A DNA stretch of 64,000 bases from a virus, in the IMG/VR virus record IMGVR_UViG_3300015262_000001, positions 164,598 to 228,597 of that record; one strand, written 5' to 3'. Position numbers and translations under genes: made by a program. Each line of letters opens with the position of its first letter. Position 1 is the first letter of the stretch. The notes below the pieces were generated by a model. That model was not told where the DNA came from and made no database searches. It was given only the letters and a program-made list of their open reading frames with translations. Below, piece by piece: positions 32,454 to 49,929 of the stretch.

Positions 32454-33383
32454 TTAAACCCCAGTAGTGGCGTTGGTGTGCATCAGCATTGGTTCGCTAG
32501 CACCGTGGTCGAATGCGTATTGGATACGCACGTTGTTCAGTGCAGCACGTGCATCGCGCTCGGTGATGTAGTGAGCATAAACAGCACTCAGTACTTCATC
32601 GTAACGAATGGTTGCACCTTGACCAATAGAACCGTCGGTCTTGGTGTCGATGCCGTAGGCAACACCCACTTCGTTTGGAGCGGCCAGGCTGGCGTCGCCG
32701 TACTTGACGCGGCAGGCGTTTTCCATTTCACGCAGGTCGGTTTGATCCAACGAGCAGTCCAGGATAGCCGAGTTGTTCATGTACTGGTTGCTGATCGGAA
32801 CCGAACCAGTACTGGTGAAGTCCACAGGCTGAGGATTGAACAAGTCATCCTTAACCGGGATATACGGCACAGGTGTTTCGTTGTTGTCTTCGTCACGGGT
32901 GATCACAACCACTTGTGGGTTGTAGCTGGCGAAGTTGATAACCTTCAACCAGTAGAACGCGTAAGCCACGCCGTTGATGTCTTCAACAACACGCATGCGA
33001 TACTTCGCACGGTTAATGTTGTTGAGGTCAGCATCCACCGGACGGCAGATAAACGGAATCGGCACGAACAGGTTGCCGTCTTTTGGCTGGTGCTGGTTGA
33101 CTTTCAGCAAGGTAGTGCCCAGACCGGTTTTACCGATGGCGTCAGAGCCACGGATACCGAGACCGAAATACTTCAGGCTGAAGTCTTCACCATTCTTAAC
33201 GCCGATGGATTCTTCTGCCAGTATGTCATGGAACTCGTTGAGGGTGGTCCACTGTGGGAGGGTGAAGTTTTGTTTGGTGTTAGAGCACTTTGCAATCAGC
33301 CCGCCCCAGGCTGTGTTCGTCACCGACTGGGTAGGAACCTCAGAGCGGTTCTGGTCTTGAAGTTCGGTTGCAGAGAGAGCCAT
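32454..33383 (-). CDS. Probable abundant virion protein, 309 aa
   Basis: The codon choice is GC-ending and uniform, like the capsid gene, suggesting high expression. The start at ATG 33383 has AAGGGA 9 bases upstream; a TTG 6 bases earlier is less likely. The protein is mixed alpha/beta, with motifs FVPIPFICRPVDADLNNINR and VVITRDEDNNETPVPYIPV. I do not recognise the family. Abundance and position in the late operon suggest a repeated structural component (tail, neck or baseplate), but nothing distinguishes between these. Confidence 0.75.
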   Translation of the reverse strand: MALSATELQDQNRSEVPTQSVTNTAWGGLIAKCSNTKQNFTLPQWTTLNEFHDILAEESIGVKNGEDFSLKYFGLGIRGSDAIGKTGLGTTLLKVNQHQPKDGNLFVPIPFICRPVDADLNNINRAKYRMRVVEDINGVAYAFYWLKVINFASYNPQVVVITRDEDNNETPVPYIPVKDDLFNPQPVDFTSTGSVPISNQYMNNSAILDCSLDQTDLREMENACRVKYGDASLAAPNEVGVAYGIDTKTDGSIGQGATIRYDEVLSAVYAHYITERDARAALNNVRIQYAFDHGASEPMLMHTNATTGV

Positions 33384-33396
33384 AATCAAAAATCCC

Positions 33397-33798
33397 TTAT
33401 AGTCGGGTTATGCGGAAACTGTTTTTAAAGCGCATAGAATCTGGGGCTAATGTCACCACCACTGCGCTTTTTTCCAGAGTTAAATAACGAATGTCGTCGG
33501 CCAGAAGACGATGGCCTGTAAAGCGATACACCCAATCTGCAATGAAACCTTTATTGGGGTTACTCTCGAGCTGTAGCCGGTACTCTGAGGGGATGTCCAA
33601 CGCACGGTGAGCAGTTAGACCACTCATATCCGTGCGCTGGTAGACATACACCTGACCAGCACTGCCGTCTTCAACATAGAACACGGGATCACCGTTAGGT
33701 TGTACCTGTGAAAAAGACAGGTTAACCTTACTGCTATCCTTGATTCTGTTGTCTTCACAGTAACGTTGTTTAACCAACGCCAAGACTTTTCTGTTCAA
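33397..33798 (-). CDS. Hypothetical protein, 133 aa, probable virion protein
   Basis: Small soluble beta-rich protein with a basic N-terminus (MNRKVLALVKQRYCEDNR). No family recognised. Packed between the 757-aa and 309-aa genes with gaps of 10 and 13 bases, so it is in the same transcript. Confidence 0.75.
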   Translation of the reverse strand: MNRKVLALVKQRYCEDNRIKDSSKVNLSFSQVQPNGDPVFYVEDGSAGQVYVYQRTDMSGLTAHRALDIPSEYRLQLESNPNKGFIADWVYRFTGHRLLADDIRYLTLEKSAVVVTLAPDSMRFKNSFRITRL

Positions 33799-33808
33799 GG
33801 TACTGTCC

Positions 33809-36082
33809 TCAGAGATCGCCGTTAGGTTTCAGATCACCGTAGTAGGTGCGAGGGATTACCTTAGGCGGGATCACCGGATCAGCTTCAGGCTCAAGAGCAC
33901 CGTAGTACGTTCCAGGGATCACGTATTCCTCAGGGAAGAGGTCTCCGTAATAGGTTCCAGGAATAACCAAAGGATCCAGCGCACCATCTGGCAACATACG
34001 GAAATAGCTGTTGTCATACAGCTTAAGCGCATACGTTGACAGACTGTTGTTCAGGTTAGTTGGCTTGATAAAGTCATGCGTGATGATATCAATCTTCATC
34101 TCGCTATCAGCCACCAGCACCGGATCCGGATTACTGATGATCGGGATGTTGGCTTCCAGGGCATGGATGGAGTCCATGTTGGAATGCTGGGTAATCATGA
34201 CGTTTTTAAAGTCGCCGTAACTACCGTTACCGACACCCACCCAACGAGAGTCACCTATAAAGGTTTCGTTGATCAGTTCAGTTTGGTCCGTACCGTCATT
34301 GATGTCTTTCACGATATGGATCGTGTAGGACGACAACTCAGACATGATGTCAATCAGATCGCTCTGCTTAACCCGTGTCGACGGTGTCTGGTTGGTATCC
34401 CAGCCGGTAACCCGTTTGAAGATGTCCCAGGAGAAGTTACGCGCCTCTTCGGCAGTGTAATCGGTGAAGTCCAACTCGTAAGCTTTAAGCAGCGAATCGT
34501 AGTCACCATAGCCGGTCAGGTTGATGATACCCGAATCGTACATCAGTTTGCAGCTGTTCTTCACCCGGGCTCTTTTGTTCAGATCGTAGAACTGACTGTA
34601 GAGCTTCTTATGTTTCCACATGGTGCTGTAAACTTCTGTGGCGTACTGGATCAGATAATCCGGGGCCAGGAAGGGGGCTACAGGAAACCAGAGCTTTTGG
34701 ATGTCAGCAGCAACATACGGACGAATGAAATCGGGGCCGCCGATCTCAATGATCTCTTCGATAGTCGGGGCTTTAAGCTTCAGAACGTTATGGTAGTAAG
34801 CCGGTTCGATAACCAAAGGATTTTGCCCCTTGGCGTATTCTACCAGGTACTTCCAAATGTAATAGGCGTCTCCCACGGGCAATCGGTACTGCTTGCCGCT
34901 CTTGGGGTCGACCGTAATCACCTTGCCGTTGAAGACCTTTTTACCTGCCAGATAAATCCACTCGTTGTACACCACCTTCATCAATGTATCGACGTGACGG
35001 TTAGTGTAGTCCATCATGGACGATTCAAGCGCTTTGGTAGGCAACTCAGAGTGAAGGCTGTACCGCCCCTTAACGATGGCATCATCCAGATAGAAATCCG
35101 TCTGATCGTAGTTGTCCTTGGCCATGATCTGTTGCTTCATGATCATAGCCTGGGTGTCAATGAACGAAGCAGTGCGTCCGTAGACCTCTACCAGGTTCAT
35201 TTGCATACGACGGTACAGTGGCGTAGGGGTCAGGTCTTCCAACTGCGTTTCAGTCGACGAAACCATGTCAAACCGAGCAAGAGGAATACTTGCCTTGGTC
35301 AACAGGTTCTTCATCAACTTGTCAAATGTGTACTGCTGACCTGGGTTATTACGTATCCAAGCAATATTACGAAACAACCACATCGTTTGTTCATTGCTGA
35401 GGCTGTTCTTGTATTGCGAGAAATTGCCGAATGAATCGATATGGCTCCAGATGAAGAAATCATGGGTATGACGCGTGTAACAGTCTTCCAGTCGAATGGC
35501 TTCGATGGTACCAATGAGGAAAGCGTAAAGCTTTTCAATCATCCATGGCAGGAACAGGTCATCAGTAACGACATAGTCATTATTGATCGATTGCCTTAGA
35601 TCGCTATTGACAGCCAGCTGTAATTTCGGGAGCAGCTGCTCTTCGTTCCAAAGCACCAGGTTCTTGTTATAGCGCAGAATCTTATAGTCTTTGGCCGCAA
35701 TGGTTTCAGAGTACGGGATCGGTGCAAGTATGCCGTTAATCAAGGCAGTCTGCCCTGGGTATACGTCGGCTAGACGGTTAAACCAATACCCGCCTTTGCT
35801 GTACTCTCGATTTGTTGCGAGGTGCAACTTCAGATTATCTTTGTTGAAAACAATCCGTTCACCAGTATCAATGGAGTTGATCCACATTACTTCATCAGTA
35901 GGGTGGTAATCCCCATTGAGGTTCATGTAATAACGCCATGTCGTTTTGTCCGAAGATACGGAATACCCAGCGTTAGTCAACACCAGGTTATCTCGTTCGG
36001 CCAAGGCCTCGATTTTGATAACCATGGTTCGAACTAGGCTGAAAGTGTCCGAGTGATACTTATCCAGATCGACACTATTCAT
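33809..36082 (-). CDS. Probable virion protein with C-terminal triple repeat, 757 aa
   Basis: Large helical/mixed protein, no signal peptide, no recognised family. The last 60 residues contain three copies of a 13-14 residue repeat: VIPGTYYGDLFPE, VIPGTYYGALEPE and VIPRTYYGDLKPN. The gene diverges from the portal gene: its ATG is 22 bases from the portal start, with overlapping control regions. Context (portal on one side, structural chain on the other) suggests a baseplate or neck component. I cannot assign it to sheath or tube. Confidence 0.75.
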   Translation of the reverse strand: MNSVDLDKYHSDTFSLVRTMVIKIEALAERDNLVLTNAGYSVSSDKTTWRYYMNLNGDYHPTDEVMWINSIDTGERIVFNKDNLKLHLATNREYSKGGYWFNRLADVYPGQTALINGILAPIPYSETIAAKDYKILRYNKNLVLWNEEQLLPKLQLAVNSDLRQSINNDYVVTDDLFLPWMIEKLYAFLIGTIEAIRLEDCYTRHTHDFFIWSHIDSFGNFSQYKNSLSNEQTMWLFRNIAWIRNNPGQQYTFDKLMKNLLTKASIPLARFDMVSSTETQLEDLTPTPLYRRMQMNLVEVYGRTASFIDTQAMIMKQQIMAKDNYDQTDFYLDDAIVKGRYSLHSELPTKALESSMMDYTNRHVDTLMKVVYNEWIYLAGKKVFNGKVITVDPKSGKQYRLPVGDAYYIWKYLVEYAKGQNPLVIEPAYYHNVLKLKAPTIEEIIEIGGPDFIRPYVAADIQKLWFPVAPFLAPDYLIQYATEVYSTMWKHKKLYSQFYDLNKRARVKNSCKLMYDSGIINLTGYGDYDSLLKAYELDFTDYTAEEARNFSWDIFKRVTGWDTNQTPSTRVKQSDLIDIMSELSSYTIHIVKDINDGTDQTELINETFIGDSRWVGVGNGSYGDFKNVMITQHSNMDSIHALEANIPIISNPDPVLVADSEMKIDIITHDFIKPTNLNNSLSTYALKLYDNSYFRMLPDGALDPLVIPGTYYGDLFPEEYVIPGTYYGALEPEADPVIPPKVIPRTYYGDLKPNGDL
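33825..33975 (-). repeat. Triple VIPxTYYGxLxP repeat (C-terminus of the 757-aa protein)
   Basis: Three in-frame repeats at protein level; the DNA copies share CCGTAGTA-type cores separated by acidic/Pro spacers of different length. This is a peptide repeat within a gene, not a mobile element. Confidence 0.85.
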
Positions 36083-36103
36083 AGTTTAACTCGTGAGGTT
36101 TAT

Positions 36104-39100
36104 ATGGGGTTCGAAACGCGCGCAGCGACTAGAGGGAACAAGTCGGTCGACTACACCAGGATTCGTGAGAACATCAAGAGTGTGTCGCCAGCCATTGCAG
36201 CTACCTTGCGCAACGCGACGCCTAAAAATGGGGTCGCTCCTGATCGTGAGGAAGTTGGTGGTACGAAGACCATCAACGAATATAAGCTCAGTCGACTGAG
36301 CAACATTATCAGTAATAACATCAACTCGGCATATGACCTGCGGGCCATTACACCGATGATTGATAAGGCCAACTTGATCTGGAACACGATCATTCTGTAC
36401 CCTAACGGGAAACAGGACAAGATGTTGACCTACGATACCCAGAGCACGAAAATTAAAAACGCGGCTCTGCACACCAGCCTGCTGGCCATCTGGGACGATT
36501 ATTACACCAATGACTATAAGATCGAGTCGCTTTTAAAGAAGATGCTCGACGATATCATGTGGAATACCGGGTCCTACGCGATCTTTAACCTGAGCCGTCC
36601 AGGCTTGGATTACTTGATCAACGGCTCCGAAGTTGACCCTTCCAAACGGACGGGTAACGAGGATTACCTTAGGGCCAAAGGTGAACTGGAGCGTGAGTTC
36701 ATTCAGGTCGATGGCAAGACCAAGATCAAGAACAAGGGTCGCTTTGTCCGTAACCCTTATGCGGCTAAAACAGCTGCTGCTGGATCTGTCAGTGGTTTGG
36801 AAGCTTTGTTTACCACGGGTGCCGATTTTGCTGAAGAAGAGTTCCCGATCTTCGATCCGGAAGAGGACAAAGAAAACAACTGGGGCATCACCATCACCGA
36901 TAACCCGGCGGTGCTGTACCTCCAGAAGTTCCAGGAGGCCAAGCGTGACCGTGACATCAAATCGGTAATGGGTGCAGAGAGTTTTGATAACATCATCTCT
37001 TCTGCAATGAAGTCACAGAAAACCCGTGACGACGAAGCGGCTAAGGCTCAAGAGGACGAGGACAAGAAGGGCGGTAAGGATAAGAAGCCTGCAAAGGCGA
37101 CTAAAGATAAGCCCGACAGTGCCACTACTCAGAACCTGACTGAAGACCAGTTGAACAACCTGAACGCTTCTGTGTTCAAGTCGCGCAACATTCGTACTCA
37201 GTCGTTGCAGTTCATCAAGTCTAATGACTCGTTGAGCGTTGCGCCTTACGGTCGTGGTCTGAGCTGGCACATTCCTTCTGAAGCAATCTTCCCGATCCAC
37301 TTCAACGGCAGTAACGGCAAGATCGATGACTACATCATCCTGCTGGATCCAGAGACCGGTGCGTTCCTCAAGAACACTGACGACCCAGAGTTCTACCAGT
37401 CGCTGGCGAAGAATAAGGACAGCATCACCAACAAGAACAAGATGGGTAGTGAGAACTCGCTCATCTCCAGTTTGCGTACGGTGCAGTCCGGTAAGCCTTG
37501 TGACTTCGACATGTCTGAGTTTGCGGATATGGCTGAGAAGAGCATTGTCCGTCAGTTCATCTCTTCTGTTTATAGCGATAAGGGTAATAGTATCAGCATT
37601 ACCCTGGATGAGGAGGTCAACAAGATCTTCCTGTCGCGTATCTTCAAGAAGCAGGGTGTGCGCTGTCTGTATGTGCCCGGCGAGGCTGTCTCGTACGGCG
37701 CCATCAAGTACAACCGTCTGGGTGTGGGTCAATCCCTTACTCAAGCGGCGAAGATGCACATCGCTCGTCTGGCGGCCTATGACGTCGCTGATGCACTGGC
37801 CAACCTGGAAGCGGCTCAACCTCATACCGAGATGGTAATCAACATCGAGAAAGAGGATGCCGATCCGGAGCAAACCATTGCGGTTGCACGGGCTACCTTC
37901 TTTGACACTAACCCTAAGCTACACTCCATCCTGTCTACGGCCCAGCTGTCGGTTCCTCAGGTAGTGGATGCATTGCGGGAAGCGTCTCTGTCGGTTAAGG
38001 TGAATGCGGGTGACAACGTTCACTTGCCTACGCCGGATATCAGCACCCAGGGTAAACAGAAGGATAACTTCAAACCTGTTGACCAGGAAAGCCGTGACGC
38101 AGTAATGAACTCCATCTCCAACTACTTCAACCTGCCCCGTGCATGGCTGGACGTAGCGGATGATCAGAACAACTTCAAGATTGAAGCGGTTACTGAGTAC
38201 GAGATGGTGTTTAACCAGGCGATCAACTGGCAGGAAATGATCTGCGACTTCTTGATTGACTTCATGCGCAAGCATACCCGAGTCAACGGTCCTCTGATGC
38301 AAGACCTTGTTCAGTGTATTCTGGACAACAAGAAGCTGTGGAAGCCTGACAGTAAAGATGTATTGGAAGGCAGCGATGAGGAAAAGGTCAAGGTTATCTT
38401 GGCAGACTTCTTTACCTCGATTTACGTGTACCTACCAGTACCTACCAGTACCGAGTCGACTAACAAGCTGAAGGATAGCCTGGAAGCCGTAACAGCGCTG
38501 GTAGCGTCTTGGGAAGAGGCTGCGGGTAACAACGGTGTCCTGCCTCAGATCTTGAAGGCGCTGAACATCAATGATGAAGACTTCACTGCTGAAGAGATCA
38601 AGTCCATGGTCAAATCAGCGTTGACGTCGGAAGCATTCCGACGGTTTAACCTGCCGATGCCGTTTGATGACATTGTTAACGAAGGTAAAGGTGGTGGTAT
38701 TGCATCGTTTGTACAGCAGATGATCCACCAGCGTGTCAACACTGCAACCTTTGTGGCTGATCTCATCGAGGGGATTACCGACTCCAACAAGAAACTCCAG
38801 AAACAATACGTGGATAAGTTGGCGAAGAAACTTGCGCCTCCTGAACCAGAAGTTGTTGAAGGCGAGGAAGGTGGTGGTGATGGGCTTAATACTGATGATA
38901 GCCTTACTGGCGGATCTTCTGAGGATGATCTGGGCGCGGGTACGGGTGCGGACGATCAAGACATTGATGCTCCTATCAGTGATACTGATGCTCCTGTCGA
39001 TGCTGATCTGGACACAGATACACAGCCTGTGGAAGATGACACCCTTCCGCCGGATGGCGATAAACCAACTGGGGATAAAGATCCAGGCGGTAAAGCGTTC

Positions 39101-39130
39101 AATCCGTTCAGTGCTAATAAAGACGAATAA
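36104..39130 (+). CDS. Portal protein, 1008 aa
   Basis: Forms the dodecameric DNA entry ring at one capsid vertex. Matches the phiKZ-type portal in its very large size and its order: a helical N-terminus; an acidic/Lys-rich insert around residues 300-360 (KAQEDEDKKGGKDKKPAKA); a central domain (GLSWHIPSEAIFPIHFN, KKQGVRCLYVPGEAVSYGAI); a stem-like region (NYFNLPRAWLDV); and an acidic Asp/Gly/Thr tail. GAES near residue 290 (SVMGAESFDN) is a candidate prohead-protease site and repeats a site in the capsid protein. The start at ATG 36104 has GTGAGG 5 bases upstream; the longer ATG at 36053 lies inside the divergent gene. Family assignment is from size and context plus motif impression. Confidence 0.8.
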   Translation: MGFETRAATRGNKSVDYTRIRENIKSVSPAIAATLRNATPKNGVAPDREEVGGTKTINEYKLSRLSNIISNNINSAYDLRAITPMIDKANLIWNTIILYPNGKQDKMLTYDTQSTKIKNAALHTSLLAIWDDYYTNDYKIESLLKKMLDDIMWNTGSYAIFNLSRPGLDYLINGSEVDPSKRTGNEDYLRAKGELEREFIQVDGKTKIKNKGRFVRNPYAAKTAAAGSVSGLEALFTTGADFAEEEFPIFDPEEDKENNWGITITDNPAVLYLQKFQEAKRDRDIKSVMGAESFDNIISSAMKSQKTRDDEAAKAQEDEDKKGGKDKKPAKATKDKPDSATTQNLTEDQLNNLNASVFKSRNIRTQSLQFIKSNDSLSVAPYGRGLSWHIPSEAIFPIHFNGSNGKIDDYIILLDPETGAFLKNTDDPEFYQSLAKNKDSITNKNKMGSENSLISSLRTVQSGKPCDFDMSEFADMAEKSIVRQFISSVYSDKGNSISITLDEEVNKIFLSRIFKKQGVRCLYVPGEAVSYGAIKYNRLGVGQSLTQAAKMHIARLAAYDVADALANLEAAQPHTEMVINIEKEDADPEQTIAVARATFFDTNPKLHSILSTAQLSVPQVVDALREASLSVKVNAGDNVHLPTPDISTQGKQKDNFKPVDQESRDAVMNSISNYFNLPRAWLDVADDQNNFKIEAVTEYEMVFNQAINWQEMICDFLIDFMRKHTRVNGPLMQDLVQCILDNKKLWKPDSKDVLEGSDEEKVKVILADFFTSIYVYLPVPTSTESTNKLKDSLEAVTALVASWEEAAGNNGVLPQILKALNINDEDFTAEEIKSMVKSALTSEAFRRFNLPMPFDDIVNEGKGGGIASFVQQMIHQRVNTATFVADLIEGITDSNKKLQKQYVDKLAKKLAPPEPEVVEGEEGGGDGLNTDDSLTGGSSEDDLGAGTGADDQDIDAPISDTDAPVDADLDTDTQPVEDDTLPPDGDKPTGDKDPGGKAFNPFSANKDE
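38431..38452 (+). repeat. Short tandem repeat in the portal gene
   Basis: CCTACCAGTA occurs twice in a row, followed by CC, giving VPTSTES in the protein. Possible site of replication slippage; in-frame length changes are not expected from a 10-base unit. Confidence 0.7.
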
Positions 39131-47047: not shown

Positions 47048-47120
47048 GGGGTTACCGCAGCACTACTACACCACGGAGCCTACTCAGGGTCTAGCACCCC
47101 GTAGTAAGCTGCCGCAACCC
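47048..47120 (-). other. Structured 3' leader/UTR element after the capsid gene
   Basis: On the minus strand GGGTTGCGGCAGC and an almost complementary GCTGCGGTAACCC enclose a second stem (TTACTAC/GTAGTAG) and a third small stem around GGGTGCTAGACCC. Two mismatches occur in the outer stem. It begins 3 bases after the capsid stop codon. It could protect the abundant capsid mRNA, act as a terminator together with the next hairpin, or be a small RNA. A tRNA was considered and not supported. Confidence 0.55.
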
Positions 47121-47123
47121 TTA

Positions 47124-49304
47124 TTACGGGTTTACTGGTGCGTTACCTTCAGTAGCGGTAATCAGGGCGTCCATACCTTCAACCTGAACGATCTGTTTAG
47201 CCAGCTTGGTCAGCAGACCGTCATCACCCAGGAACTCGTGAGCATCTTCGATGATCAGCGAGCCGATGATAACGTTCAGTGGCCAGTGACGGTAGGTAGG
47301 CATGGTCATGACCACACCGAAGTCCTGTTGGTCACGAGTCACGTTACCCTGCACGACGATGTTCTCTTTCGAGATGTTCACGCCGATGCCGCCCAGTGGG
47401 TTGATGAAGTCGTTGGTGGACGTGTTCTTCGGAACGATCAGCAGTTGGCCGATTTGGCTGTCGAAGTTGGTCTCAACGATTTGCATCGTGGTCACTGGAC
47501 CCAGGGAACGAGCGTCGCCCGAACGCATCAGGAAGCGCGCCAAGTTCTGGTGAACCACAACGGTCCATTCGATCTTGTCAGTGCCGCCGTATTCAGCGAT
47601 CGCAGCCAGACCCGACTTGGTGTTCAGGGCAGCGGTGATGTCGCTCAGTTCGTTCAGGAACACAGCAGCAACGTTGTCGAACACGTCTGCCGAGTCCAGG
47701 GACGATACACGGTCCTTGATCTTGAACGAACGGTTGATGGCCGCAGCCGAAACGTAGTGCTGACCAGGCAGGACGTTGGAGCCCTGTTGGTTGCCAACAA
47801 CTGGAGAGCCGTCGATCGAGGTGATGTACTTCAGGTGTTCCTGAGCCACATCGAACGCTTTCTTCGAGCACTGGTTGTTGATCGCGATCGACATCTGCTG
47901 AATCGCGAAGTCCAGGGAACCCTGGTTAACGTCGTCAGCCGATACTGGGTACTTGACCGAGACCGGGCTGTTGCGACGAACGGACAGACGCTTGTCGGCA
48001 TCGAACACTTCAATGCGGTAGCCGAAGTTGCCGCGGGAGGTGTTGGAGACGTTGCCGCCCAGGTCGATACCGGTAACAGCACCGGCAGTCAGGGACTTGA
48101 TCAGGCCCTTCTGGGTTGCGTCAGCTTTGTGCATGGTGATAACGTTGCCGTTAGTCAGGTCACGCAGGCCGTGCACGGTCACTTGACCGGAGTTCAGACG
48201 CAGCTCGTTGCTCTGGCGCTGGTAGTTGCCGTTCAAGCTGATGTTCAGCAGAGGCTCGTAACCGGCGGTCTTGAACGAAGCGAACATGGTTTCGCCAACG
48301 GTAGCACCGTCTTTGTCCAGAACGCTGAAGCCTGGGAAAGCGCGCAGGTGCAGGTTGACTTCACGGTCGTCGGACGACTGGCCTTGGCTGGTAGGGCCGA
48401 AGGTGTTGTTCGAGATCGAGTTGGTGTTGATGAAGAAGTTGATCGCGGTAGCGCCCAACTTAGCCGAAGCCAGAACTTCTTTAACGACCAGCGAGTTGGA
48501 CTCGAGTTCGTCAGTGCTGGTCCATGGACGCTGGCCAGGAACCTGGGTCAGAGCCAGATAGTTCGGAATGGTGTTCGGAACTTTCAGGAACTGAGTAGCG
48601 TGGGAGCTACGGTTGTAGGCGTCTGCTTCCGGGTAGGTGGCAGTGCCGGCAGCGATGATCGCGGTATCAACGAAGAAATCGCGGTTGTCATCGTTGGCGT
48701 CTTCTGGGTAAACCGGATGCACGGCCAGGACTTCGTCCTTGAACATGTCGCCAGTACGCAGCAGGCCGAAGATCGGACGCAGTTCGGAAGCCGACTGCCA
48801 TGCCGAGTTACCGTAGGCGTACGAACCGATACCCGCAGCGCGGACTACCAGGTTTGCGCCTTCGTCTTCGTAACGAACGGTGATGGTGGAGAACAGCGCT
48901 TCAGCGCCAGGAGTTTGCAGGTGCGACTGAGCGTTCAGCGTCAGGTTCGCGGCCTTGATGTCCATCTCGCTGCCTTTGAAGTTCTGGAGCGAGAAACCCT
49001 CGATACCAGTTACTTCAGCCAGAGCCTTGGCCGCTTCGTTCATGATCGCCATTTCGCCGCCAGGAACAGAGGCGCGATTCAGCGAACCGGAGAAAGCGTC
49101 AAACTGCTTTGGAGTGACAGATTGGAACAGCGTGGTCAGTTGATGGCTTTCAACGCCGGCGATATTTTTAACGCCTTCGCTGAAGAGGTCGAAGCTCTCA
49201 GCACCGATCACGGAGCTGAGTTGGTTGTTGCCCAGGGCGGTACGAACGGCGCTGAAGAGGTTTCCGGTATTCTTCAGAGACGCGGTGACTTGTTTAAAGG
49301 CCAT
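47124..49304 (-). CDS. Major capsid protein with N-terminal propeptide, 726 aa
   Basis: Builds the icosahedral shell (HK97 fold inferred). The size and long N-terminal propeptide match phiKZ-type capsid proteins. The first 135 residues contain several G-x-E sites: V32-I-G-A-E36, GVE52, GIE102, and TPGAE at 133-135. Cleavage by the phage prohead protease after one of the later sites, most likely E135, would leave a mature chain starting ALFSTITV. The gene has GC-rich, uniform codons and is followed by a structured 3' region, both fitting the most abundant protein of the particle. The protease itself is not in this window. Confidence 0.85.
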   Translation of the reverse strand: MAFKQVTASLKNTGNLFSAVRTALGNNQLSSVIGAESFDLFSEGVKNIAGVESHQLTTLFQSVTPKQFDAFSGSLNRASVPGGEMAIMNEAAKALAEVTGIEGFSLQNFKGSEMDIKAANLTLNAQSHLQTPGAEALFSTITVRYEDEGANLVVRAAGIGSYAYGNSAWQSASELRPIFGLLRTGDMFKDEVLAVHPVYPEDANDDNRDFFVDTAIIAAGTATYPEADAYNRSSHATQFLKVPNTIPNYLALTQVPGQRPWTSTDELESNSLVVKEVLASAKLGATAINFFINTNSISNNTFGPTSQGQSSDDREVNLHLRAFPGFSVLDKDGATVGETMFASFKTAGYEPLLNISLNGNYQRQSNELRLNSGQVTVHGLRDLTNGNVITMHKADATQKGLIKSLTAGAVTGIDLGGNVSNTSRGNFGYRIEVFDADKRLSVRRNSPVSVKYPVSADDVNQGSLDFAIQQMSIAINNQCSKKAFDVAQEHLKYITSIDGSPVVGNQQGSNVLPGQHYVSAAAINRSFKIKDRVSSLDSADVFDNVAAVFLNELSDITAALNTKSGLAAIAEYGGTDKIEWTVVVHQNLARFLMRSGDARSLGPVTTMQIVETNFDSQIGQLLIVPKNTSTNDFINPLGGIGVNISKENIVVQGNVTRDQQDFGVVMTMPTYRHWPLNVIIGSLIIEDAHEFLGDDGLLTKLAKQIVQVEGMDALITATEGNAPVNP

Positions 49305-49380: not shown

Positions 49381-49929
49381 TTACGGGTTTTGGATACTAA
49401 CCAGTTTGTAAACCTCTGCCAAGGTAAATTCACCCTGGTTAGGTTTTGGGATTTTGCCGTTGTGGGATTCCATGTATCCCACCTTAGCAAAAATTGTTTC
49501 CAGCAAAGCGCCAGAGAAAGTGACACACTCTAGCGTGTCGAAGCCAGGAGCCTTTGGAGCGTTCTCCCCATTAAATAGAAAGATGATGGTGTTCATGCCT
49601 GCATCGATACAACTGAACGACTTGGTATCCTTGGCAATCGCGGATAAGCTTTCACCGTCCAGGCTATTAAATGCAGCCTCGACCATGCCGGCGTTGTACC
49701 CTTCACCAAACAGGTGTTTAGGGTCAATTAACAATACACCGAGCTGTTGAGCCACGATATATTGAAACTTCAGGATGCCGGCGATTTCGCCAAAGGTCAA
49801 CTTCTGATGATATGTTGACAGCTTAGCAACATCGCTGAACGGAATTGCTTGACTGGCCAGCAAACGTTGCATCTCGCTGGTCAGATAAAAAATACGGACT
49901 GACTTCCCTTGAGGGGTCTTAAGAATCAT
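49381..49929 (-). CDS. Hypothetical protein, 182 aa
   Basis: Soluble alpha/beta protein (MILKTPQGKSVRIFYLTSEM) with no recognised family. The ribosome site AGGAG overlaps the promoter side of the divergent helicase gene, whose start is only 23 bases away. Probably a late gene near the capsid gene or a replication accessory; neither is supported by motif. Confidence 0.75.
   Translation of the reverse strand: MILKTPQGKSVRIFYLTSEMQRLLASQAIPFSDVAKLSTYHQKLTFGEIAGILKFQYIVAQQLGVLLIDPKHLFGEGYNAGMVEAAFNSLDGESLSAIAKDTKSFSCIDAGMNTIIFLFNGENAPKAPGFDTLECVTFSGALLETIFAKVGYMESHNGKIPKPNQGEFTLAEVYKLVSIQNP

Follow-up and report, generated by a model that had tools for sequence, protein, structure and literature searches.

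Three VIPxTYYGxL repeats at the C terminus of a 757-aa phage baseplate protein are, in our judgment, somewhat better read as a docking motif than as anything else: a C-terminal peptide of the form [ILV]P-x-T-[YDN]-Y-G-x-L that would hang one common partner on the virions of phage EL and its relatives. The clade with the motif comprises Elvirus, Risingsunvirus, FishSpeaker, and uncultured relatives, and in it three virion-region products from different protein families (the baseplate protein, the major capsid protein in its -1 frame, and a protein of ~200 aa) carry the same short motif at or near the end, with variants that agree. Comparison of these sequences suggests that the baseplate, capsid, and ~200-aa motifs dock one common partner. 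The analysis concerns a window of 64,000 nucleotides (positions 164,598 to 228,597 of IMG/VR virus record IMGVR_UViG_3300015262_000001), and the features discussed are collected in Table 1.

The tandem array on a baseplate protein

The last 52 residues of the 757-aa protein hold all three copies, and its C terminus reads ...VIPGTYYGDLFPE EYVIPGTYYGALEPE ADPVIPPK VIPRTYYGDLKPN GDL. When the 228,597-bp genome was searched with the strict motif pattern, the three matches (3/3) were the three array copies themselves; the looser pattern P-x-T-x-Y-G-x-L gave two further sites, a chance-like match on the plus strand and the end of the gene for the ~200-aa protein. The repeats, first pointed out in an earlier note on this DNA as the end of a virion protein, are therefore real, and the span given there (33825-33975) covers the array but misses the last few bases of the third copy. 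The spacers, which had been called acidic, are so, and they are also short and proline rich.

The designation as a virion protein holds and can be narrowed, as the 757-aa protein is by homology a baseplate protein. It belongs to family phrog_3222 (E = 9.8e-215), and a phmmer search of PDB sequences matched it to PHIKZ128 (chain 9xqs_C; E = 5.5e-72), with which it has in common a homologous core of ~600 residues (aa 1-600) at 28.9% identity. The title of PDB entry 9xqs is "Structure of the inner peripheral region in the phage phiKZ baseplate complex." The same chain is the top Foldseek match (E = 2e-18) of an AF2 model of the 757-aa protein; this model, built from 15 sequences, is poor (pLDDT 46, with a low TM-score for the match), and its top fold match alone was used, because it agrees with the sequence match to PHIKZ128. 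Relatives of the 757-aa protein are present in 272 of 50,697 phage records, all at <60% identity, the best being Pseudomonas phage EL and its kin.

In phiKZ, as here, the PHIKZ128-type gene stands divergent to a gene of the phrog_3004/gp129 type, and we take the phiKZ counterpart of the phrog_3004 protein to be the portal. SPN3US gp81 is described as a portal protein. Two genes downstream of the array lies a homologue of PHIKZ139, whose PDB entries include 9xqd, titled "outer peripheral region in the phage phiKZ baseplate complex." In contrast to the window's protein, PHIKZ128 has a tail without the TYYG motif; 610 of its 724 residues are resolved in 9xqs, and the tail is mostly unresolved. 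The motif was not found in the phiKZ or OBP tails of the baseplate homologues, and searching the tail sequence directly in phages and in the PDB gave no match.

Table 1. Features in the window, and one gene elsewhere in the same genome, that bear on the motif
Feature	Position	Strand	Remark
757-aa baseplate protein (by homology), PHIKZ128 homologue, phrog_3222	33809..36082	-	Core aa 1-600 conserved, tail aa 600-757 variable
Motif copy 1, VIPGTYYGDLFPE	33929..33967	-	
Motif copy 2, VIPGTYYGALEPE	33884..33922	-	
Motif copy 3, VIPRTYYGDLKPN	33821..33859	-	
133-aa gene, phrog_35067	33397..33798	-	Directly downstream of the 757-aa gene; context
311-aa PHIKZ139 homologue (DUF7208)	32454..33389	-	Two genes downstream of the 757-aa gene; context
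1025-aa virion structural protein, phrog_3004	36053..39130	+	Divergent neighbor of the 757-aa gene; context
726-aa major capsid protein, phrog_3231	47124..49304	-	Matches gp120-type capsid proteins in the PDB
Slippery heptamer, A AAC CCG	47127..47133	-	In phase; abuts the capsid stop codon
Extension in the -1 frame across the capsid stop, IRVAAAYYGVLDPE, closed by TAG	47080..47124	-	
Predicted hairpin	47049..47120	-	Begins just after the capsid stop codon, encloses the -1 extension
Gene for the ~200-aa protein	G000:C1:143404-144060	minus	Outside the window; ends KVIPPTDYGLLTVDEDAPIV
		

The ~200-aa carrier and agreement among carriers

The third carrier belongs to the EL gp147 family (phrog_18233), which is filed apart from the families of the baseplate protein and the capsid protein and has the same C-terminal motif, the copy in this genome ending IPPTDYGLLTVDEDAPIV. 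The ~200-aa protein ends in P-x-T-[DYN]-Y-G-x-L in 14/14 genomes, a figure that describes what the matches are and not a rate of retention, since these genomes were chosen by a motif pattern search over 19. A homology search for the same protein found the motif retained at 14 of 15 loci; at the exception (L214) the match runs into another frame end, and the same genome holds the motif as L115. Among the relatives, RisingSun gp205 and gp206 have PDTDYGDL near the end and the FishSpeaker protein has PATDYGHL. Two RisingSun proteins, gp201 and one of 583 aa, combine the domain of the ~200-aa protein with a fibre-like domain, and the one of 583 aa ends in PETDYGDL plus a short tail. Another shared C-terminal motif was seen in two relatives of the third protein, at G000:C1:119818-120417 and in RisingSun gp201 (L121 240-1904), which end HDGTLTYQ and HNGTLHY, respectively; gp201 also shares DLGDIxxKQ with RisingSun gp89.

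The predicted structure of the ~200-aa protein is confident (pLDDT 92, pTM 0.80), and the motif forms a C-terminal coil of falling confidence. Among solved structures, chain 0 of 9xqd comes closest (Z 6.1, rmsd 4.1, 125 aligned; the next row has Z 3.6). This chain is PHIKZ127, whose gene adjoins that for PHIKZ128. The Foldseek comparison of the two proteins is weak (E = 0.55), hhalign did not indicate sequence homology between them (probability 0.07), and matches of the ~200-aa protein to PDB entries by HMM were weak and taken as chance. The PHIKZ127-like fold may therefore serve as a weak lead from modeling, one that homology does not support.

In EL, gp147 adjoins the chaperonin gp146, and in both EL and this genome the gene for the ~200-aa protein comes directly after a GroEL-like gene. 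This position would suit a reading in which an assembly factor or the phage chaperonin recognizes the motif as a tag, with no structural dock in the finished virion. We consider that reading unlikely, as Miami and VP4B have GroEL-like genes yet lack the motif, and the motif proteins of RisingSun sit elsewhere, among fibre-like genes. Moreover, tagging a few per cent of the capsid subunits would presumably do nothing for the folding of the others.

Variants of the motif go together within genomes. An aromatic residue two positions after the Leu in the array is accompanied by the same feature in the third protein (5/5 versus 1/10, P = 0.002, the one case in 10 being a regex match outside the motif), and a corresponding difference was obtained between array and capsid extension (4/8 versus 0/13, P = 0.012); these counts and P values ignore kinship among the genomes. 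In the outgroups, the pattern P.[TNSA].YG.[LIV] within the last 40 aa matched 0/11,567 stop-bounded segments of Miami and 0/11,225 of VP4B. This C-terminal regex misses the capsid motifs of EL and the window, and in clade members it also gave a few short, chance-like segments. Because the outgroup segments lack the motif, and because the core codons differ mostly synonymously (see below), the array is not a product of chance. These comparisons bear as well on the proposal that the repeats dock a partner in the baseplate only, the capsid and third-protein motifs being independent look-alikes. The 757-aa protein and the nearest fold of the third protein do both come from the phiKZ baseplate, but the carriers of the motif co-occur in the clade and are absent in the outgroups, and this, with the agreement of variants within genomes, leaves us regarding independent origins as quite improbable.

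The motif in the -1 frame of the capsid gene

A search for TYYG codons in 11 relative genomes revealed, in five of them, single sites that lie off the array and near the capsid gene. These sites are in the -1 frame overlapping the stop codon of the 726-aa ORF or its orthologues. The YGxL motif is present in the -1 extension, which runs for 10-19 aa after the stop, in 31/31 clade capsid genes, several of which are closely related to one another; G025/L138 was left out of the comparison, its match stopping short of the capsid end. The extension reads SPANYGRLEYPELP in EL, IPSTNYGRLG in RisingSun, and MLPGTYYGVLDPED in L091, and that of the window is without the P and T of the motif (AAAYYGVL). 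No motif follows any of eight outgroup capsid genes (Miami, VP4B, phiKZ, OBP, pEt-SU, and three OBP-like contigs). Second, distant capsid-like matches were also observed, at G016:C1:65547-66197 and G011:C1:201768-202391 (32% and 26% identity, respectively).

A canonical in-phase X XXY YYZ heptamer is present in 26 of the 31 genes, including that of the window, most commonly as C CCA AAC, A AAC CCG, or G GGA AAC; four of the five genes without one have A ACC CCG. In RisingSun, FishSpeaker, L093, L094, and L101, the open -1 frame does not extend upstream of the heptamer. Of the 161 homology-supported ORFs of the genome, two (the capsid gene and its upstream neighbor) have a canonical heptamer that is in phase and lies 0-9 nt upstream of the stop, and one (the capsid gene) has the motif in its -1 extension. 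The upstream neighbor (window 49381-49929) ends on in-phase AAACCCG and has a -1 extension without the motif. When the extension was compared among seven close relatives, 2, 1, and 8 of 15 columns were variable at codon positions 1, 2, and 3, respectively, such that the third positions of the -1 frame hold 8 of the 11 variable columns. As judged from these alignments, the capsid -1 extension is under coding selection.

Predicted hairpins follow the capsid gene in most members of the clade (z < -2 versus mononucleotide shuffles). The hairpin is no better than shuffles in EL, HHBS47, L095, L098, and L100, and L101 has a z of -1.1. Alignment of six close members gave a 28-pair fold in which most pairs are present in 6/6 sequences, with no double-sided pair change. 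The outgroups Miami and VP4B also have strong terminator-like hairpins after their capsid genes, and hairpin stability alone is therefore not specific. Such stable hairpins, in most clade members and in outgroups alike, are what one would look for if the 3' end of the capsid gene were an RNA element only (a hairpin, terminator, or processing site) and the -1 motif its by-product. This is very unlikely given that every one of the 31 genes keeps the encoded motif, that changes among close relatives fall mostly at third positions of the -1 frame, that two other proteins of the same genomes bear the same peptide, and that the outgroups have hairpins without it. A -1 frameshift in the capsid gene is accordingly a prediction that is well supported by the heptamer and the coding pattern and modestly supported by structure.

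Copy number, selection, and the proposed docking system

In close relatives from IMG/VR (about 44-92% identity), the array has between zero and four copies: none in L042 and L047 (= L021), one in L036 (= L016), which is 88% identical to the window's protein, four in L039, L049, and L058, and two or three in the others, with L053, cut by a contig end, left out of the counts. The short tails of L021 and L016 are not frame errors, because the junction between each tail and the following gene is intact. Since copies range from 0 to 4 and can be lost, we rejected a match to three-fold symmetry, and with it the earlier idea of a three-fold partner. Absence from close homologues had been named as evidence against docking, and it was found in part, in the two phages with no array copies. 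Both of these retain the motif in the capsid -1 extension (SLIPDTDYGVLKAFAQ behind A AAA AAC in L021, MLPGTYYGVLDPED in L042), so the motif matters beyond the baseplate array.

Spacing of the copies is often uniform within an array (17, 17, 17 in L039 and L049; 19, 19 in L050). Between neighboring strict copies it is 15-23 and varies by lineage, and a gap of 38 in L057 spans a copy missed by the strict pattern. The 56 strict copies in 26 distinct proteins, a set in which P, T, and Y are invariant because the search pattern fixes them, keep G in 50 cases and L in 54. Codons for the core residues P, T, Y, G, and L within arrays show 141 synonymous differences, 16 nonsynonymous differences, and 113 identities, and the non-core positions show 59 synonymous and 114 other differences. 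The strict regex undercounts arrays such as that of EL, whose variants are LPETNYGRL, GPADYGRL, and DPANYGRL; the RisingSun array has IPDTDYGSL. A near-neutral tandem tail serving as a spacer with no specific partner would account for the variable copy number and spacing and for the two homologues with none, but there is very little prospect of this, as core residues are retained through many synonymous changes and unrelated proteins bear the same motif.

Several further tails were recorded. In Pseudomonas phage MIZ-Pa99 (L005 5001-5450), the EL gp104 homologue is truncated after two motif copies by a frame change, and the next frame encodes a third copy (DPANYGKLVLRG); this is either a natural variant or a sequencing error. 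The OBP-like relatives L023, L024, and L025 have tails with a different repeat, of the LSNAMTLKP type, and the L055 tail has three TYYG-type copies and one FSNAMYAEL, as if one type could take the place of the other. The FishSpeaker homologue (L004 5001-7688) is 895 aa long and has other short repeats (SISGL and SKSLTGL); the next three genes carry tail-fibre annotations. In HHBS47_1 (L002 5394-6658), minus-strand ORFs, probably miscalled, are annotated in the place that gp105 and gp106, on the plus strand, occupy in EL.

In the docking system that we favor, tandem copies on the variable tail of the baseplate protein would act as docking sites on the baseplate, and the ~200-aa protein would supply one further copy at its C terminus. 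Ribosomes would slip by -1 at the capsid heptamer at a low rate and so yield a minor, motif-bearing form of the capsid protein. The frameshift rate would thereby determine how many docking sites the head has, and the tandem copy number how many the baseplate has. The earlier proposal of a docking peptide for a multicopy partner thus gains from the conservation of the motif, from its place on a tail of the kind that is largely invisible in the phiKZ structure, and from its recurrence at the C termini of the products of other virion genes; the partner itself was not found. As a first guess, held with less confidence, the partner may be a fibre or adhesin-type protein, and it would probably bind the motif by way of an added strand or hook. 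The fibre cluster in this genome and the precedent of fibres on jumbo-phage capsids make such a partner reasonable. A fuller scheme is put forward tentatively, as a possibility in which we have less than even confidence. In it, a single nine-residue motif would place one fibre or adhesin-type partner on both head and baseplate; programmed -1 frameshifting of the major capsid gene would determine how many the head bears, and tandem copies that expand and contract from phage to phage would determine how many the baseplate bears.

Parts of this picture are already known, namely, capsid -1 frameshifting in T7, T3, A2, and Listeria phages and the homologues of the baseplate protein. In T7/T3 gene 10, Lactobacillus phage A2, and Listeria phages A118/A500, as outlined in PMC5009743, -1 slippage close to the stop codon lengthens a minority of the major capsid subunits at the C terminus. 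The extensions described there are Ig-like or other domains, whereas here the extension would be a peptide of 10-19 aa with a motif shared with the baseplate, added by a putative frameshift. The jumbo phages PTm1 and PTm5 have fibres on the capsid (PMC13282480), a precedent for head fibres in addition to tail fibres; the passage describing them mentions no shared docking motif. Our search of the open-access literature found nothing on the motif, on its presence in both baseplate and capsid proteins, or on frameshifting of the capsid gene in EL-like phages, which does not prove absence.

If correct, the scheme would give a simple rule for where a giant phage carries its surface proteins and in how many copies, and phage EL, as a cultivable model, would allow the rule to be tested. 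The scheme would also provide a case of capsid frameshifting in a jumbo phage with a clear purpose, the extension being the dock. The motif could guide the search for the partner and help to name virion proteins of the clade that lack an annotation.

Three candidate partners were set aside. The fibre N-terminal domain of phrog_2163 is present in 23/23 genomes searched, motif bearing or not, and is not clade specific. GroEL homologues are present in all five named genomes tested, including two without the motif. The ~310-aa FN3-like paralogues are clear in RisingSun and FishSpeaker but have only weak partial matches in EL, and are therefore not universal. In the genome studied here, six of these paralogues, FN3-like as read from their sequence, lie in a fibre-gene cluster outside the window (G000:C1:119818-134598), together with two proteins of 331 and 349 aa, a 1335-aa fibre-like gene, and a Kelch-like gene.
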